A stretch of 64,000 nucleotides of DNA from Actinocorallia herbida (lineage in GTDB: Bacteria > Actinomycetota > Actinomycetes > Streptosporangiales > Streptosporangiaceae): assembly GCF_003751225.1 (NCBI RefSeq), contig NZ_RJKE01000001.1, positions 2,356,001-2,420,000 on the forward strand, in the 5' to 3' direction. Shown piece by piece: positions 54,160-64,000 of this stretch. How positions within the stretch are numbered: the stretch's first letter is position 1; each line of letters begins with the position of its first letter. Made by a program: the position numbers and the translations under genes. A model generated the notes under the pieces. It was given only the letters and a program-made list of their open reading frames with translations. It was not told where the DNA came from and did no database searches.

Positions 54160-54177
54160 TCTTTGAGAGGGGGCGGG

Positions 54178-55533
54178 ATGGGGCGGCAGATCCACCTCGC
54201 GGCGCACTTCCCGGGCGTGAACAACACGACGGTCTGGGCCGATCCGGCCTCGGGGAGCCAGATCGACTTCGCGTCGTTCGCACACCTGGCGCGGACGGCG
54301 GAACGGGGCAAGTTCGACTTCTTCTTCCTCGCCGAGGGGTTGCGGCTGCGGGAGATGAAGGGGCGGATCCACGACCTCGACGTGATGGGCAGGCCCGAAT
54401 CCTTGACCGTCCTCGCGGCCCTCGCGGGGGTGACGACGCACCTGGGCCTGGCCGCGACCGTCAACTCGACCTTCAACGAGCCGTACGAGCTGGCCCGCCG
54501 CCTCGCCACGCTGGACCATCTGAGCGACGGCCGGGCCGCCTGGAACGTCGTGACGAGCTGGGACGCCTTCACCGGCGAGAATTTCCGCCGCGGCGGCTAC
54601 CTCGCGGAGGCCGACCGTTACAACCGGGCCCGGGAGATGCTCCAGACAGCGCGCGAGCTGTGGGACTCCTGGGACGACGGCGCGATCCTCGCCGACCGGG
54701 AATCCGGGCGGTTCGTCGCCGCAGACCAGGGGGCCTTCCGGCATGCCGGGCCGCAGTTCGACATCTCCGGCGTGTTCGGCACCCCGCGCCCGCCGCAGGG
54801 GCATCCCGTCATCATCCAGGCGGGCGACTCCGAGGAGGGCCGCGAGTTCGCCGCCTCCGACGCGGACGTCATCTTCAGCCGGCACAGCGTCCTGGAGGAG
54901 GCCCGCGCCTTCTTCAAGGACGTGAAGTCCCGCCTCGCCAAGTACGGTCGCCGCCCGGACGACCTCAAGATCCTCCCCGCGGTGACCGCGGTCGTCGCCG
55001 ACACCGACGCCGAGGCCGTCGAGGAGGCCGCGCGCATCCGCCGCGCCCAGGTGAGCGCGCCGACCGCGCTCGCGTTCGTCGAGGGCGTCTGGGGCCGCGA
55101 CCTGTCCGGATACGACGCCGACGGGCCGCTGCCGGACCTCGACCCCGATCCGGGCGAGGGCGTCTCGCGGGGCCGGGCGCAGTTCCGCGGCGACCGGGCC
55201 GCCGTCGCGCGACGCTGGCGGGAGCTGTCGGAGGCGCGCGGCGGGCTCACGATCCGCGAGCTCGTCATCGAGGCGACCGGCCGCCAGACGTTCGTCGGCG
55301 CGCCGGGGACCGTCGCCGAGCAGATGGACGACTACGTCCAGACCCGCGGATCCGACGGGTTCATCCTCGTCCCGCACCTCACCCCGACCGGGCTCGACGC
55401 CTTCGTCGACCGCGTCGTCCCGCTGCTCCAGGAGCGCGGCTCGCTGCGCGCCGACTACACCGGCGCCACCCTGCGCGACCACCTCGGCCTGTCCGGCCCG
55501 CGAAGGCCGTCCGTGAGAGAGAAGGACGCATGA
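54178..55533 (+). CDS. NtaA/SnaA/DszA-type FMN-dependent monooxygenase
   Basis: 451 aa bacterial luciferase-like TIM barrel: GRQIHLAAHFPGVNNTTVW at the N-terminus, FFLAEGLRLRE, LATLDHLSDGRAAWNVVTSWD (residues 110-132), and FIQAGDSEEGREFAA-like segment IIQAGDSEEGREFA near 220. The family oxidises nitrilotriacetate, dibenzothiophene sulfone or pristinamycin II with FMNH2 supplied by a reductase. ATG 54178 follows GAGAGGGGG. It is the first gene of a four-gene operon; carbon-sulfur or C-N cleavage of scavenged compounds is likely. Confidence 0.9.
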   Translation: MGRQIHLAAHFPGVNNTTVWADPASGSQIDFASFAHLARTAERGKFDFFFLAEGLRLREMKGRIHDLDVMGRPESLTVLAALAGVTTHLGLAATVNSTFNEPYELARRLATLDHLSDGRAAWNVVTSWDAFTGENFRRGGYLAEADRYNRAREMLQTARELWDSWDDGAILADRESGRFVAADQGAFRHAGPQFDISGVFGTPRPPQGHPVIIQAGDSEEGREFAASDADVIFSRHSVLEEARAFFKDVKSRLAKYGRRPDDLKILPAVTAVVADTDAEAVEEAARIRRAQVSAPTALAFVEGVWGRDLSGYDADGPLPDLDPDPGEGVSRGRAQFRGDRAAVARRWRELSEARGGLTIRELVIEATGRQTFVGAPGTVAEQMDDYVQTRGSDGFILVPHLTPTGLDAFVDRVVPLLQERGSLRADYTGATLRDHLGLSGPRRPSVREKDA

Positions 55534-56717
55534 CGCACCTGCACCTCGCGGTGGCGCTCGACGGGGCGGGCTGGCACCCGGGCGCCTGGCGGGACCCCCT
55601 CGCCCGGCCCGCCGAGCTGTTCGGCGCGCGGTACTGGGCGGACCTCGCGGCAGAGGCCGAACGCGGGTTCCTCGACTTCCTCACCTTCGAGGACGCCCTC
55701 GCCGTCCAGTCGTCCCGGTGGGAGGGCCCCGACGGGCGCACCGACCAGGTGCGGGGGCGGCTCGACGCGGTGCTCGTCGCGGCCAGGCTCGCCGCCGTGA
55801 CGTCGGCGATCGGCCTGGTCCCGACCACGAGCACGACGCACACCGAGCCGTTCCACGTGGCGATCGGCATCGCCTCCCTCGACCACGCGACGTCCGGGAG
55901 GGCGGGCTGGCGGCCGCAGGTGTCCGGGAAGGCGGCGGACGCCTTGCACTTCGGGCGCCGGACACTGCCGGTGTTCGCACCCGAGGAGTACGGGACCGGG
56001 GCCGTCGCGGAGGTCGTCGCCGGACTGTTCGGGGAGGCGGCCGACGCGGTCGAGGCGGTCCGGCGGTTGTGGGACAGCTGGGAGGACGACGCGATCATCC
56101 GGGACACGGACACCGGAAGGTATGTGGACCGCGCCAAACTCCACTACATCGACTTCGAGGGGCGGCATTTCAGCGTCCGGGGGCCGTCGATCACGCCCCG
56201 CCCGCCGCAAGGGCAGCCGCTCATCACCGCGCTCGCCCACGACGTCGTCCCTTACGAGTTCGCCGCGCGCTCGGCGGACGTGGTCTACGTGACCCCGCAC
56301 TCCGTGGCGGACGCGCACACGATCGTCGGCGCGGTCCGGGAGGCCGAGCGCACCGTCGGACGGACGGGCGCGCCCCTCAGGGTCTTCGCCGACCTCGTCG
56401 TCTTCCTCGGCCCGGCCGCCGCCGACCGCAAGGACGCGCTCGACGAACTGGACGGCGCTCCCTACACGTCCGACGCCCTGGTCTTCACGGGCACCGCGGA
56501 CGACCTCGCCGACCTGCTGTCGTCCTGGCAGGAGACCGGGATCGAGGGCTTCCGCCTCCGCCCCGGCGCCCTTCCCCGCGACCTCCACCACATCACTCGC
56601 GACCTCGTCCCCGCCCTCCAGGCTCGCGGCGCCTTCCGCGGCGCGTACGCCGAGGACGTCCTCCGTACCCGCCTCGGCCTCGCCCGCCCCGCCAACCGCT
56701 ACGCCCCGGCCCCGTGA
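55530..56717 (+). CDS. Luciferase-like FMN monooxygenase (NtaA/SnaA/DszA-related)
   Basis: 395 aa, second paralogue: [51 protein letters not shown] (residues 110-130), [17 protein letters not shown] near 222. The ATG overlaps the preceding stop. Probably acts on a related substrate or forms a pathway step after the first enzyme. No flavin reductase gene is in the operon, so FMNH2 must come from elsewhere. Confidence 0.88.
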
Positions 56718-56766: not shown

Positions 56767-57897
56767 TTGAGCGTTCCCCTGTCGATCCTGGACCTCGCGC
56801 CCGTCCTGGCCGGGGGGAGCGTGCGCGACGCACTGCGCGACACCCTCGACCTGGCGCGCCACGCGGAGGAGTTCGGGTACCACCGGTACTGGCTCGCCGA
56901 GCACCACCTCGCGCCGGGCGTCGCGTCGTCGGCGCCACAGGTGCTCATCGGAGCGGTCGCCGCGGCGACCAGCCGGATCCGGGTCGGGTCCGGCGCGGTG
57001 CAGGTCGGGCACTGGACGCCGCTGGCGGTCGCCGAGCAGTTCGGCACACTCGACGCGCTGTACCCGGGCCGGATCGACCTCGGGCTCGGCCGCTCCGGGC
57101 AGGCCCGCGCCGAACTCGCCGCCCGCCGCGCCGCGCCGCCGCCGCGCCCGGAGGCCAGGACCGTCGACGGGCTGCTGATCCCCCGTCCGTTCGACTTCGG
57201 CGTCCTCGGCACCTCCGCGGCGTTCAAGACGTTCTCCCAGCTCCAGCAGCCGGGCGCGCGGACCCCCGACTTCGCCGAGACGGTCGACGCGATCACCGCG
57301 CTCCTCGCCGGAACCCACCACATCGAGGACGGGATCCCGGTCCGCGCGTTCCCCGGCGAGGGCGCGGAGCTCGACCTGTGGATCCTCGGCAGCAGCGGCG
57401 GCGAGAGCGCGCGGGTCGCGGGAGAGCGGGGGCTGCCGTTCGCCGCGAACTACCATGTCGCGCCCTCCAACGTGCTGGAGGCGGTCGAGGCGTACCGGGC
57501 GGCGTTCAAACCGTCGGACGCGCTCGGCGAACCGTACGTGGTGGTCTCGGCCGACGTCGTGGTCGCCGAGGACGACGCGACCGCGCGCCGCCTCGCCGCG
57601 CCCTACGCGCTGTGGGTGCGGAGCATCCGCCGGACCGGCGCCGCGATCCCCTTCCCGACCGAGGCCGACGCCGCCGCGCACGAGTGGACCGACGCCGACC
57701 TCGACCTCGTCGCCGACCGGACCGCCACCCGGTTCACGGGCGCGCCGGAGACGGTCGTCGAACGGCTGCGGACGCTCCAGCGCGTCACCGGCGCCGATGA
57801 ACTCCTCGTCACCACCATCGTTCACGACCACGCCGCCCGCGTCCGCTCCTTCGAGCTGCTCGCGCGCGCCTGGCACGGCACCGGAGGAACCCCATGA
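56767..57897 (+). CDS. LLM-class flavin-dependent oxidoreductase (MsnO8-like)
   Basis: 376 aa luciferase-family enzyme of a different subgroup: [42 protein letters not shown] (residues 38-57), [26 protein letters not shown] and [23 protein letters not shown] 56767 has GGGAGG upstream. It is 49 bp after the previous gene and overlaps the next by 4 bp. The substrate is unknown. Confidence 0.9.
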
Positions 57898-58754
57898 CCT
57901 ATGCCCCGCCCGTCGACGTCGCCGCGCACGGCCCCTACGGCCCCGAGAGGGTCGAGTACTCGGCGGCGGCCGGACGTCCCGTCTACCCCTTCCAGGGCCG
58001 CCTCGGCACGCCCGCCCACCCGGCGGCCGCCGGGCGCTACCACCTGTACGTCGCCTGGGTGTGCCCGTACGCGCAGCGCGTCGCGATCGTGCGTGAGCTG
58101 CTCGGTCTCCAGGACGTCGTCGGGCTGTCTTACGTGGACGACGAGAGGGACGCGCTGGGCTGGGCGTTCCGGGAACGGCGCGGGGACGACCCCGTCAACG
58201 GGTTCCGGTACCTGAGCGAAGCCTACGAGGCCACCGAACCGGGTTACCCCGGGCACCTCTCCGTGCCCGTCCTCTGGGACACCCGTTCGCGCCGCATCGT
58301 GAGCAACCACTACCCGGACATCACCTTGGACCTCGCCACGCAGTTCACCCCTTGGGCGGACCCTTCCGTGCAGCTGTACCCCGCGCACCTGCGCGCGCGC
58401 ATCGACGTCCTCAACGACGAGATCTTCACCGACGTGAACGACGGGGTGCAGAAGGCCCGTGCGGCGGACCCCGAGACGGCCTCCGCCGCACGGGCTCGCT
58501 TGTCCGCGGCGTTCTCCCGCTACGACGAGGTCCTCGCACGCTCCCCGTACCTGCTCGGCGACTCCCTCACCGAAGCCGACGTGCGGCTCTGGGTGACGCT
58601 CGTCCGCTACGACTCCGTCTCCAACGCGCACGGTGAGATCTCGCCGGATTCCCTCGCGGCCTACCCCTCCCTGGCCTCCTACACGGCCCGTCTCCTAGCG
58701 CTCCCCGCCTTCGCGGCGACGACGGACCCGTCCCTCATGCCCCTCGCCGGCTGA
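57894..58754 (+). CDS. Glutathionyl-hydroquinone-reductase-like GST-family protein
   Basis: 286 aa. N-terminal thioredoxin-like domain with the catalytic Cys in WVCPYAQRV (about residue 59), typical of Xi-class GSTs (YqjG/ECM4), and an all-alpha C-terminal domain with [13 protein letters not shown] and [14 protein letters not shown]. In actinobacteria, which lack glutathione, mycothiol is the probable thiol partner. It would reductively release thiol-quinol adducts or electrophiles formed by the upstream monooxygenases. Confidence 0.9.
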
Positions 58755-58843
58755 CCCCGTTCCCGCAGGTCACCCGCATTGACTCCACTCGGTGGCGGCA
58801 CGTAGCGTCTTATGTGCTCTACGTAGCCACCGGAAGGGACTCG

Positions 58844-59191
58844 ATGCGCATCCGACCCGTCCTGACCACGGCCGCCGCCCTCGCGGCCCTCACCACCGCC
58901 CCCGCCTCCGCCACCCCGCAGCCCCCCGCCCCGTCCGTGGTCGTCGCCATCACCTTCTGCCAGGAACCCGACTACAAGACCTGCGACCGCTACGGCGTCG
59001 ACACCGGCACCGCCTACCAGGTCCCCGCCCCCTACACCAGCAAGCTCGCCTCCGCCCGCACCGAACCCGCCGGCACCACCTGCACCCTCTACAAGTACGA
59101 GAACGCCATGGGCCGCCTCGCCGAGATCACCCCCTCGGGCACCTCGACCCTGGAGGTCAAGCCCACCTCCTTCCGCTGCACCGCCCCCTGA
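58844..59191 (+). CDS. Small secreted hypothetical protein
   Basis: 115 aa with a Sec signal peptide (MRIRPVLTTAAALAALTTAPASA, cleavage after about residue 23). The mature part has four Cys (TFCQEPDYKTCDRYG, GTTCTLYKY, SFRCTAP) likely in two disulfides. ATG 58844 is chosen for GGAAGGGA upstream. A hairpin terminator follows. No family is recognised. Confidence 0.75.
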   Translation: MRIRPVLTTAAALAALTTAPASATPQPPAPSVVVAITFCQEPDYKTCDRYGVDTGTAYQVPAPYTSKLASARTEPAGTTCTLYKYENAMGRLAEITPSGTSTLEVKPTSFRCTAP

Positions 59192-59470
59192 CCCCCGCCG
59201 CCGAGGGTTCTCACGAACCCTCGCGCGGCGAACAGGTTTCCGCGCACCGCTCTCTCCGGCAGCGCCTCGCCCACTCGGCCGCCCGCGCCCGGGCGGCCTC
59301 TCGGCGGACGGCGCCGGATCCGCTCGGGACCGGCCGGCACGCGGCACCGCCAACACCCGCTTGAGGAGCGCAGGGCCGCCTCGGGCGGGTGTTCGCGTAC
59401 ACCTCGAGACGCCGGAAGGGCGATCGGGGTCCGGCCTGGGTCGGTGGATCGTGACCAAATTCATGTATTT
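59192..59470 (+). other. Intergenic interval with terminator
   Basis: Apart from the hairpin at 59202-59223, nothing recognisable is present until the AT-rich promoter region that begins near 59455. Open frames on the minus strand here are Arg/Gly/Ala-rich and lack an RBS. Confidence 0.5.
59202..59223 (+). terminator. Hairpin terminator after the secreted-protein gene
   Basis: Perfect 9-bp stem CGAGGGTTC/GAACCCTCG with a TCAC loop, 10 bp after the stop codon. Confidence 0.75.
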
Positions 59471-59493
59471 CCTACTTAATTAGTCTGTATTAT
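59471..59493 (+). promoter_or_regulatory. Promoter and operator-like site of the riboswitch transcript
   Basis: CCTACT-TAATT-AGTCTG (59471-59487) matches the palindrome at 54143 in the left half and four of six right-half bases. TATTAT at 59488-59493 is a good -10 element, 10 bp before the aptamer. The stretch is the most AT-rich part of the area. Confidence 0.5.
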
Positions 59494-59502
59494 GTGGGTG
59501 TC

Positions 59503-59582
59503 GGCAAGGAGTGCCAGCGTCAAGCCCCGGCTCGCTGGCCGGCAACCCTCACTGATGCGGGGTGCCCCGGGTGAAGGCCAGG
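59503..59582 (+). promoter_or_regulatory. SAM-IV riboswitch
   Basis: The sequence follows the actinobacterial SAM-IV consensus: GAGTGCCAGCG, CAAGCCCCGGCT, CGCTGGCCGGCAACCCTC, then GGGGTGCCCCGGGTGA. The P2 stem GCCAGCG (59513-59519) / CGCTGGC (59533-59539) is perfect. P1 (GGC ... GCC) looks shorter than usual. It binds S-adenosylmethionine in known members and normally precedes methionine/sulfur genes; here the next gene is a LuxR-type regulator, 36 bp downstream. CCTCAC inside the aptamer can pair with GTGAGG at the gene's RBS. Confidence 0.88.
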
Positions 59583-59618
59583 TGGCGTTCGCGTCACAAG
59601 CAACGGTGAGGACGAATC

Positions 59619-60863
59619 GTGGGCGTGGTGAGTGCGGTCGTGGAGACGGCCGTGGACAAGGTCGGCGAAGAGACGGTGCGGGACCTCGTCTGGGCGGGGC
59701 GGCCGGACGAGGCGGAGAAGGCGCTGGCGCGCCTGGCGGACGGCGGCCGTGACCCGGACGGCAGAGTCAGGGACTGGGCGTCGGTATGGTACCCGGAGAG
59801 GATCGGGCCGCCGGTGGCACGGTCCGAACCGGGCCGGGCGACCGGATTCGATGTGCTGCGCGACCTGCTGGCGACCCGTGCGGCGGGCCCGGCGGTGCGC
59901 GAGGCCGAGGCGGTGCTCGGCAGCTGCCCGATGAGCACCGACGCGTTGACGTCCTTGGGCGGGGCGCTCGCCGCGCTGGTCTACGCCGACCGGGCGGACC
60001 TCGCGGCGCGCTGGTGCCGTCCGCTGCTGGAGCAGACCACCGCGCACTGCGACCCGGTGTGGCTCGGGCTGTTCGCGGCGATCCGCGGCGAGACCGCGCT
60101 CCGGCTGGGCGACGCCGCCGAGGCGGCGGCGTGCGTCCGGACCGCGCTGCTGCACATTCCGTGGGGCGACTGGGGCGTCGCGATCGGCATCCCGTTCGCC
60201 ACGATGATCGCCGCCAAGACGACCCTGGGCATGACGGAGGACGTCATCAGATATCTCGCGGTGCCCGTTCCCGAGGCGATGTGGGAAACACCCGCGGGGC
60301 TGCATTATCTCGCGGCGCGCGGCCAATTCCACGCGGCGTCGGGAAATGCGGCGGACGCGCGCGCCGACCATCTGGAATGCGGCCGGAGAATGCGGCGGTG
60401 GGGCATCGACCTGCCGGGTCTCGCGGCCTGGCGGATCGGCGCGGGGCACGCCGCGCTCGCGCTCGGCGAGCGTGCCGAGGCGGCGTCCCTCGCCCGGGAG
60501 CAGCTCGCGCTCGTCGGCGCCGCGCCCACCCGGACGCGCGGCGCCGCACTGCGCCTGCTCGCCCTCGCGGGCGCCCCTGAGCAGCGGCAGATCCTGCTGG
60601 AGCAGGCGCACGACGTGCTCCACGAGGCGGGTGACCTACGGGAGGCGGAACGTGCCAAGGCCGATCTGCGACCCGCCGAGCCGGCCAGGACGGTGCTCAG
60701 CGAGGCCGAGGCCAAGGTCGCCGAACTCGCCGCCCGCGGGCTGTCGAACCGGCAGATCTCGACCCGGCTGTACATCACGGTGAGCACCGTGGAACAGCAT
60801 CTGACCCGCATTTACCGCAAGCTCGGCGTGCGCCGCAGGAGCCAACTCGCCGCATTCCTGTGA
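59619..60863 (+). CDS. LuxR-family transcriptional regulator under the SAM-IV riboswitch
   Basis: 414 aa. Residues 1-340 are helical, TPR-like repeats resembling the C-terminal part of LAL regulators, without an ATPase P-loop. The C-terminal LuxR HTH (about 350-412) reads LSEAEAKVAELAARGLSNRQISTRLYITVSTVEQHLTRIYRKLGV. GTG 59619 has GAGGA upstream. Proteins like this activate antibiotic clusters, and the PKS gene begins 104 bp downstream in the same orientation, so it is the likely pathway activator. Confidence 0.9.
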   Translation: MGVVSAVVETAVDKVGEETVRDLVWAGRPDEAEKALARLADGGRDPDGRVRDWASVWYPERIGPPVARSEPGRATGFDVLRDLLATRAAGPAVREAEAVLGSCPMSTDALTSLGGALAALVYADRADLAARWCRPLLEQTTAHCDPVWLGLFAAIRGETALRLGDAAEAAACVRTALLHIPWGDWGVAIGIPFATMIAAKTTLGMTEDVIRYLAVPVPEAMWETPAGLHYLAARGQFHAASGNAADARADHLECGRRMRRWGIDLPGLAAWRIGAGHAALALGERAEAASLAREQLALVGAAPTRTRGAALRLLALAGAPEQRQILLEQAHDVLHEAGDLREAERAKADLRPAEPARTVLSEAEAKVAELAARGLSNRQISTRLYITVSTVEQHLTRIYRKLGVRRRSQLAAFL

Positions 60864-60967
60864 CCCCTTGGCGATAGGGGGCGCTAGGGGTTCGCGGATC
60901 TGGTGGCGGTATCCCCCGGTGGACAGAATCGATCAAGTAAGAGATCGGTCTTCCCCGGGGGGACAGC

Positions 60968-64000
<3,033 letters not shown>

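Follow-up and report, generated by a model that had tools for sequence, protein, structure and literature searches.

A SAM-IV riboswitch in the leader of a LuxR/LAL-type regulator gene may tie a polyketide cluster of Actinocorallia herbida to sulfur shortage

Riboswitches that control transcription factors occur in other bacteria, for example the B12 riboswitch with pocR, and the LuxR activators of the LAL type (large ATP-binding regulators of the LuxR family) associated with polyketide clusters include PikD and RapH. Passages of two papers place class IV S-adenosylmethionine (SAM-IV) riboswitches before cysteine-desulfurase-like/pyridoxal phosphate enzymes in S. lividans and S. clavuligerus (PMC8079986, PMC8269248). 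Here we describe a SAM-IV element in the 5′ leader of a LuxR/LAL-type regulator gene, next to a modular polyketide synthase (PKS) of Actinocorallia herbida, within a window of 64,000 nt (NZ_RJKE01000001.1, positions 2,356,001-2,420,000 of the forward strand). The reading we favour, with somewhat more confidence than doubt, is that SAM turns this cluster-situated activator off and that the cluster joins the sulfur-shortage response. It draws on the aptamer, its placement on the ribosome-binding site, its association with the regulator in three genomes, a box before the regulator, and a repeat before both the first PKS gene (PKS1) and an importer gene.

The SAM-IV element is confirmed as genuine. 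The window matches the Rfam SAM-IV model (RF00634) over its entire length (model 1-116 of 116) with 80.9 bits (E 8.1e-13; gathering cut-off 38 bits), and RF00634 is the sole Rfam family to reach its gathering score anywhere in the 64 kb. The initial annotation had identified the class and the start correctly, but its extent of 59503-59582 cut off the P5 hairpin as well as the 3′-side strand of PK-2, a pseudoknot; the true 3′ end lies at 59608, so that the supposed gap of 36 bp to the coding sequence becomes 10 nt to the GTG at 59619. Helices P1, P2a/b, P3 and P5 and pseudoknot PK-1 are all present (96-100% paired across 37 distinct sequences including that of the window), the core GAG, CAAC and GGUGC is retained, and P1 consists of three standard pairs and one A-G. 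The element resembles the family in its full-length match, helices and core, but differs from it in having a regulator as target, in a C-G for U-A at P1 pair 3, and in a PK-2 that could form only in a register displaced by one position, where it merges with the Shine-Dalgarno (SD) sequence, as also in G002, a genome of the same genus. The A. herbida genome holds two SAM-IV elements in total, and the other (L005, 112.1 bits) precedes a gene for a cysteine desulfurase of SufS-like type (236.8 bits, under the curated cut-off of 475.1). As in S. lividans and S. clavuligerus, the target of this second element is an enzyme, whereas the same riboswitch class is found before a regulator in the window.

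Directly behind the aptamer lies a gene whose 414-aa product carries a GerE/LuxR helix-turn-helix (HTH) at residues 359-412, and PKS1 follows it; on both the LuxR-like regulator as the next gene and the modular PKS behind it, the initial annotation holds. Its sequence can be aligned to residues 467-943 of a LAL protein of 949 aa that carries an AAA_16 domain and comes from G210, a genome of another genus. No AAA ATPase match was found in the window protein, as opposed to this homologue, and because the N-terminal ATPase is absent we file it as LAL-like rather than as a LAL. With 81 GerE matches in the genome, the regulator type itself is common. Like PikD and RapH, the protein is cluster-situated, with a C-terminal LuxR HTH and a probable direct-repeat operator before the PKS; unlike them, it has no ATPase domain and has a riboswitch in its leader. 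The logic of metabolite, RNA and regulator is also that of B12-pocR-type systems, from which the locus differs in riboswitch class and in its polyketide cluster target.

The position of the aptamer points to translation as the controlled step. The SD-like GGTGAGGA overlaps the aptamer 3′ end, and a terminator scan of 59180-61000 found no intrinsic-terminator-like site. Given this overlap, the 10-nt spacing to the start codon and the lack of a terminator-like site, the switch is most simply read as acting on translation initiation, which seems likelier than termination. In the same interval, the one sigma-70-like promoter predicted lies on the - strand, with none on the + strand.

The association between SAM-IV and this regulator recurs in the family, where SAM-IV was found in 263 of 341 genomes (among the 44 with more than one element, 40 were re-searched and that of A. 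herbida was treated separately, with G307, G311 and G312 left out). G002 encodes a 71%-identical regulator with a SAM-IV in front (82.3 bits), and in G210 a SAM-IV (75.7 bits) precedes the full-length LAL homologue, so that SAM-IV followed by a LuxR gene is seen in two genera in all. A LuxR HTH lay downstream of 3 of the 51 family elements checked (window, G002 and G210) and of none of 58 others, a control set made up of the 30 top scorers in the family plus 28 of the 29 elements sampled from the class, whose flanks of only ~1.5 kb would miss a long LAL; L116 (element cut short) and L162 (no core found) were dropped from the count. A SufS-like gene follows each of those 30 top scorers. Among 394 evenly drawn class genomes there was no further LuxR-linked SAM-IV (model R1: 138.7 bits for the A. 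herbida element, 93.8 for the next) and, at E <= 1e-55, no regulator homologue outside A. herbida, and a scan of genome contigs gave nothing beyond a short HTH match in a metagenome-assembled genome.

At the level of the cluster, the LuxR regulator, PKS, short-chain dehydrogenase/reductase (SDR), two SnoaL proteins, and an importer substrate-binding protein (SBP) and permease recur in eight genomes (A. herbida, G002, G210, G005, G007, G187, G150 and G037). The latter two proteins show similarity to nickel/peptide importers, at scores below curated cut-offs. In A. herbida, four PKS genes encode a loading module, five extension modules and a thioesterase; a simple pattern scan found no CSS active-site motif in the first ketosynthase (KS) of PKS1, as expected of a loading module. 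In a tree of four cluster proteins, the three SAM-IV carriers split from the other five genomes with support 100, so a single gain or loss of SAM-IV suffices. The clusters of G005 and G007 hold a SAM-IV elsewhere, before a second SBP/permease/monooxygenase operon. For the regulators of G005, G007, G187, G150, G037 and G004, neither the family model, run on 1.5-kb flanks, nor model R1 detected a degenerate SAM-IV upstream, an R1 match in G004 (14.8 bits, E 0.83) being taken as chance. G004 itself was not counted as a cluster, having a regulator-like stretch and the box described below but no SDR, SnoaL, SBP or permease match in ~61 kb.

Two further sequence motifs may connect the regulator to sulfur genes and to its own cluster. 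A GTAGGAAATA box lies 28 bp upstream of the aptamer, and occurs at 3 sites in the whole genome (reversed control 0). In all eight clusters it occurs no more than 400 bp before the regulator (seven exact, G150 with one mismatch; 0.0 in shuffles), and exact copies precede 14 of 52 SAM-IV elements, three of them at regulators and 11 elsewhere, as opposed to none of the 30 top-scoring ones, with 0.005 per shuffled set; the shuffles for these counts preserve single-base composition only. Ten of the 11 non-regulator loci adjoin SBP/permease importer homologues, and other sites in G005, G210 and A. herbida are near sulfonate-type transport genes, among them those for NMT1-type binding proteins and a transport permease, a molybdopterin oxidoreductase, or a rhodanese/metallo-beta-lactamase gene; some sites (L183, L193, L195, L197, L198) have no evident sulfur gene nearby. 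The regulator promoter shares its box with sulfur genes and with other SAM-IV operons, and a sulfur regulator may bind it; a literature search on Rrf2/CymR as its owner returned no usable match. The second motif, a TAGGGG-N4-TAGGGG repeat (<=2 mismatches), stands between regulator and PKS1 in all eight clusters (five exact) and before the SBP gene in seven (five exact; G210 without), and 10 of the 18 exact repeats in the eight whole genomes precede PKS1 or the SBP. This placement suggests PKS1 and the importer gene alike as targets of the regulator.

Under the mechanism we favour, the SAM-bound aptamer with its PK-2 would hide the SD and leave the regulator untranslated. When SAM falls under sulfur shortage, the SD would open, the GTAGGAAATA-box promoter would be active and the regulator would be made, then bind the TAGGGG repeats and activate importer and PKS operon alike. 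In each of the eight clusters, regulator and PKS seem to be linked to a sulfur-shortage response through the promoter, to which the SAM-IV riboswitch adds a second link in three. The switch is likely on when SAM is low, which inverts the sense implied by the initial annotation, of SAM abundance driving polyketide production.

Several observations weigh against this mechanism, the first of which concerns the sign of the switch. The minimum-energy fold computed without pseudoknots (-63.6 kcal/mol) sequesters the SD by pairing it over 8 bp with the P3 5′ strand, to the exclusion of P3, while enforcing the aptamer helices gives -46.2 kcal/mol with pseudoknots uncounted. This would also fit an ON switch: with little SAM present, that strand would pair with the SD (CCUCACUG/CGGUGAGG), and SAM, by forming P3, would partly free the SD and permit synthesis of the regulator and the polyketide. 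The SD/P3-strand helix is predicted in the pseudoknot-free folds of both the window and G002 leaders, and folding does not settle between ON and OFF. We nonetheless consider an ON switch unlikely: with SAM bound, too, half of the SD would be paired through PK-2; the CCUC conserved in SAM-IV pairs with many GAGG-type SDs, so that the SD/P3 match is partly generic; the promoter box ties the gene to sulfur-acquisition operons, which should be on at low SAM; and known SAM riboswitches repress. The OFF sign is favoured because of this sulfur context.

Further points concern the aptamer subtype and the operator. The usual register of PK-2 is broken in the window and G002, where only a 5-bp helix shifted by one (CACUG/CGGUG) is possible, one that takes in part of the SD. 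Across the alignment (A3, built from 38 of 82 available elements, those left out including ten with the variant core GGCATCCC), PK-2 shows both-sided changes at 5/5 pairs, and G210 has 5/5 pairs in the usual register (CUGUG with CACAG). The start codon of G210 lies ~134 nt downstream of the aptamer, so the SD platform of the window cannot be read in that genome. A passage of a cryo-electron microscopy study of SAM-IV describes PK-2 as joining the P3 side to the 3′ end, and SAM binding as causing no large change (PMC6890682). In P1, the three regulator-linked aptamers start GGCAAGGAG and the other 48 readable elements carry T at position 3; pair 3 is C-G in these three of the 37 distinct sequences and U-A in the remaining 34, and pair 4 is A-G or A-A in the three, such that affinity may differ. 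By homology to SAM-I, pair 3 presumably sits at the sulfonium contact; since C retains the O2 carbonyl, SAM binding is plausible. As for the TAGGGG repeat, it is not enriched genome-wide (18 exact copies against 32 of the reversed control), its signal therefore being one of placement and not number, and the G150 copy before PKS1 is weak, as its two mismatches are a level at which ~20 matches occur in the 117-kb A. herbida locus.

The last of these points, the lack of a SAM-IV at the regulator in five of the eight clusters, implies that the switch is dispensable. Just upstream are monooxygenase and GST-like (glutathione S-transferase-like) genes with homologues in SAM-IV operons elsewhere: LLM1 homologues stand in those of G005 and G007 (74-75% identity) and in G003 (75%), LLM2 homologues at 65-66% in G003, G005 and G007, and the GST-like protein shares 52-55% identity with the proteins encoded immediately after SAM-IV at L080, L082, L087, L092 and L101. 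The initial annotation, which had set the target apart from sulfur genes, is right that it is a regulator and not a methionine gene, but the shared box and these neighbours speak against the separation. Both the neighbours and the five clusters would fit a relic, in which SAM-IV and promoter were relocated from a sulfur operon beside the regulator and regulation was lost. We regard this as improbable: the aptamer helices are retained in three genomes and two genera, with PK-2 compensations in G210, the box precedes the regulator also in clusters without SAM-IV, and the three carriers fall on one side of the support-100 branch, as for one old gain or loss. SAM being the methyl donor for tailoring enzymes, the switch might instead match production of a methylated polyketide to methyl supply. 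This is very improbable, as no methyltransferase domain was found in the four PKS genes or the scanned SDR, SnoaL and monooxygenase genes, with genes further out only partly scanned.

Features of the A. herbida locus, in window coordinates
Feature	Position	Strand	Basis
LLM1, NtaA/DmoA-family FMN monooxygenase, probable sulfur-acquisition operon	54163..55533	+	TIGR03860 416.6 bits, cut-off 279.7
LLM2, NtaA/DmoA-like monooxygenase, start approximate	55620..56717	+	TIGR03860 256.5 bits, below cut-off 279.7, in open reading frame 54660-56717
LLM3, MsnO8-family monooxygenase	56767..57897	+	TIGR03558 337.9 bits, cut-off 166.95
GST-like protein	57894..58754	+	PF13410, 47.8 bits
GTAGGAAATA box, probable transcription-factor/promoter element of sulfur regulon	59466..59475	-	sole TAGGAAATA in 117-kb locus
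Possible -10 hexamer TATTAT, by eye	59488..59493	+	unsupported by promoter scan
SAM-IV riboswitch aptamer (P1, P2a/b, P3, P5, PK-1, PK-2)	59503..59608	+	RF00634, 80.9 bits
Putative PK-2 5′ strand CACUG, register shifted by one relative to family	59550..59554	+	alignment, pair counts
Putative PK-2 3′ strand CGGUG, overlaps SD	59604..59608	+	sequence, alignment
SD-like GGTGAGGA, 6 nt 5′ of GTG	59605..59612	+	read from sequence; identical in G002
LuxR/LAL-type regulator, 414 aa, GTG start	59619..60863	+	GerE PF00196, 50.5 bits
TAGGGG-N4-TAGGGG repeat, probable operator of regulator	60875..60890	+	placement across clusters
PKS1, on past window to ~69988 (window numbering)	60968..64000	+	KS-AT-ACP then KS-AT-DH-ER-KR-ACP

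Other features were noted alongside. Between the GST-like gene and the riboswitch, 58814-59191 holds a 125-aa open reading frame that matches no Pfam family and whose N-terminus is signal-like. Elsewhere, SAM-IV and the GTAGGAAATA box precede GST-like and/or FAD proteins and an SBP/permease operon (L077, L080, L082, L086, L087, L092, L101, L107), and SAM-IV elements stand before lipoproteins of ~370-390 aa (L070-L072, L074-L076, L078, L079, L083, L088). G218 has six SAM-IV matches (L089, L091, L095, L103 and others), including a divergent pair ~80 bp apart with one member before a 156-aa open reading frame, and G314 (L099) has a similar divergent pair with a 154-aa frame. Ten elements (L084, L085, L089, L090, L091, L095, L098, L099, L100, L103) carry the core GGCATCCCGC replacing GGCAACCCTC, a change that adjoins SAM-contact bases and may mark a variant with altered ligand.

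No paper naming both SAM-IV and LuxR emerged from the literature searched, outside which fall subscription papers and most supplementary tables, so that an unremarked listing is possible. Among the matches listed, there was no SAM riboswitch before a cluster regulator, nor any paper devoted by its title to sulfur limitation with a polyketide cluster. A passage of PMC5143413 deals with a synthetic theophylline switch, and one in a 2026 review considers what such mechanisms contribute to the control of entire clusters to be not well studied (PMC13379591).

If the OFF-switch reading is correct, an RNA would read a primary metabolite directly and thereby set the cluster-situated activator of a modular PKS, sulfur limitation or leader mutation would offer a testable elicitor for a cluster of uncharacterised product, and the locus would hint at a role for some polyketides in acquiring sulfur. 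A more tentative extension, to which we give about one chance in three, is that the polyketide cluster belongs to a sulfur-starvation response in which a LAL-like master activator is gated by a distinct SAM-IV subtype, marked by C-G at P1 pair 3 and a PK-2 merged with the SD, with the polyketide and its dedicated importer scavenging sulfur in the way that siderophores scavenge iron.
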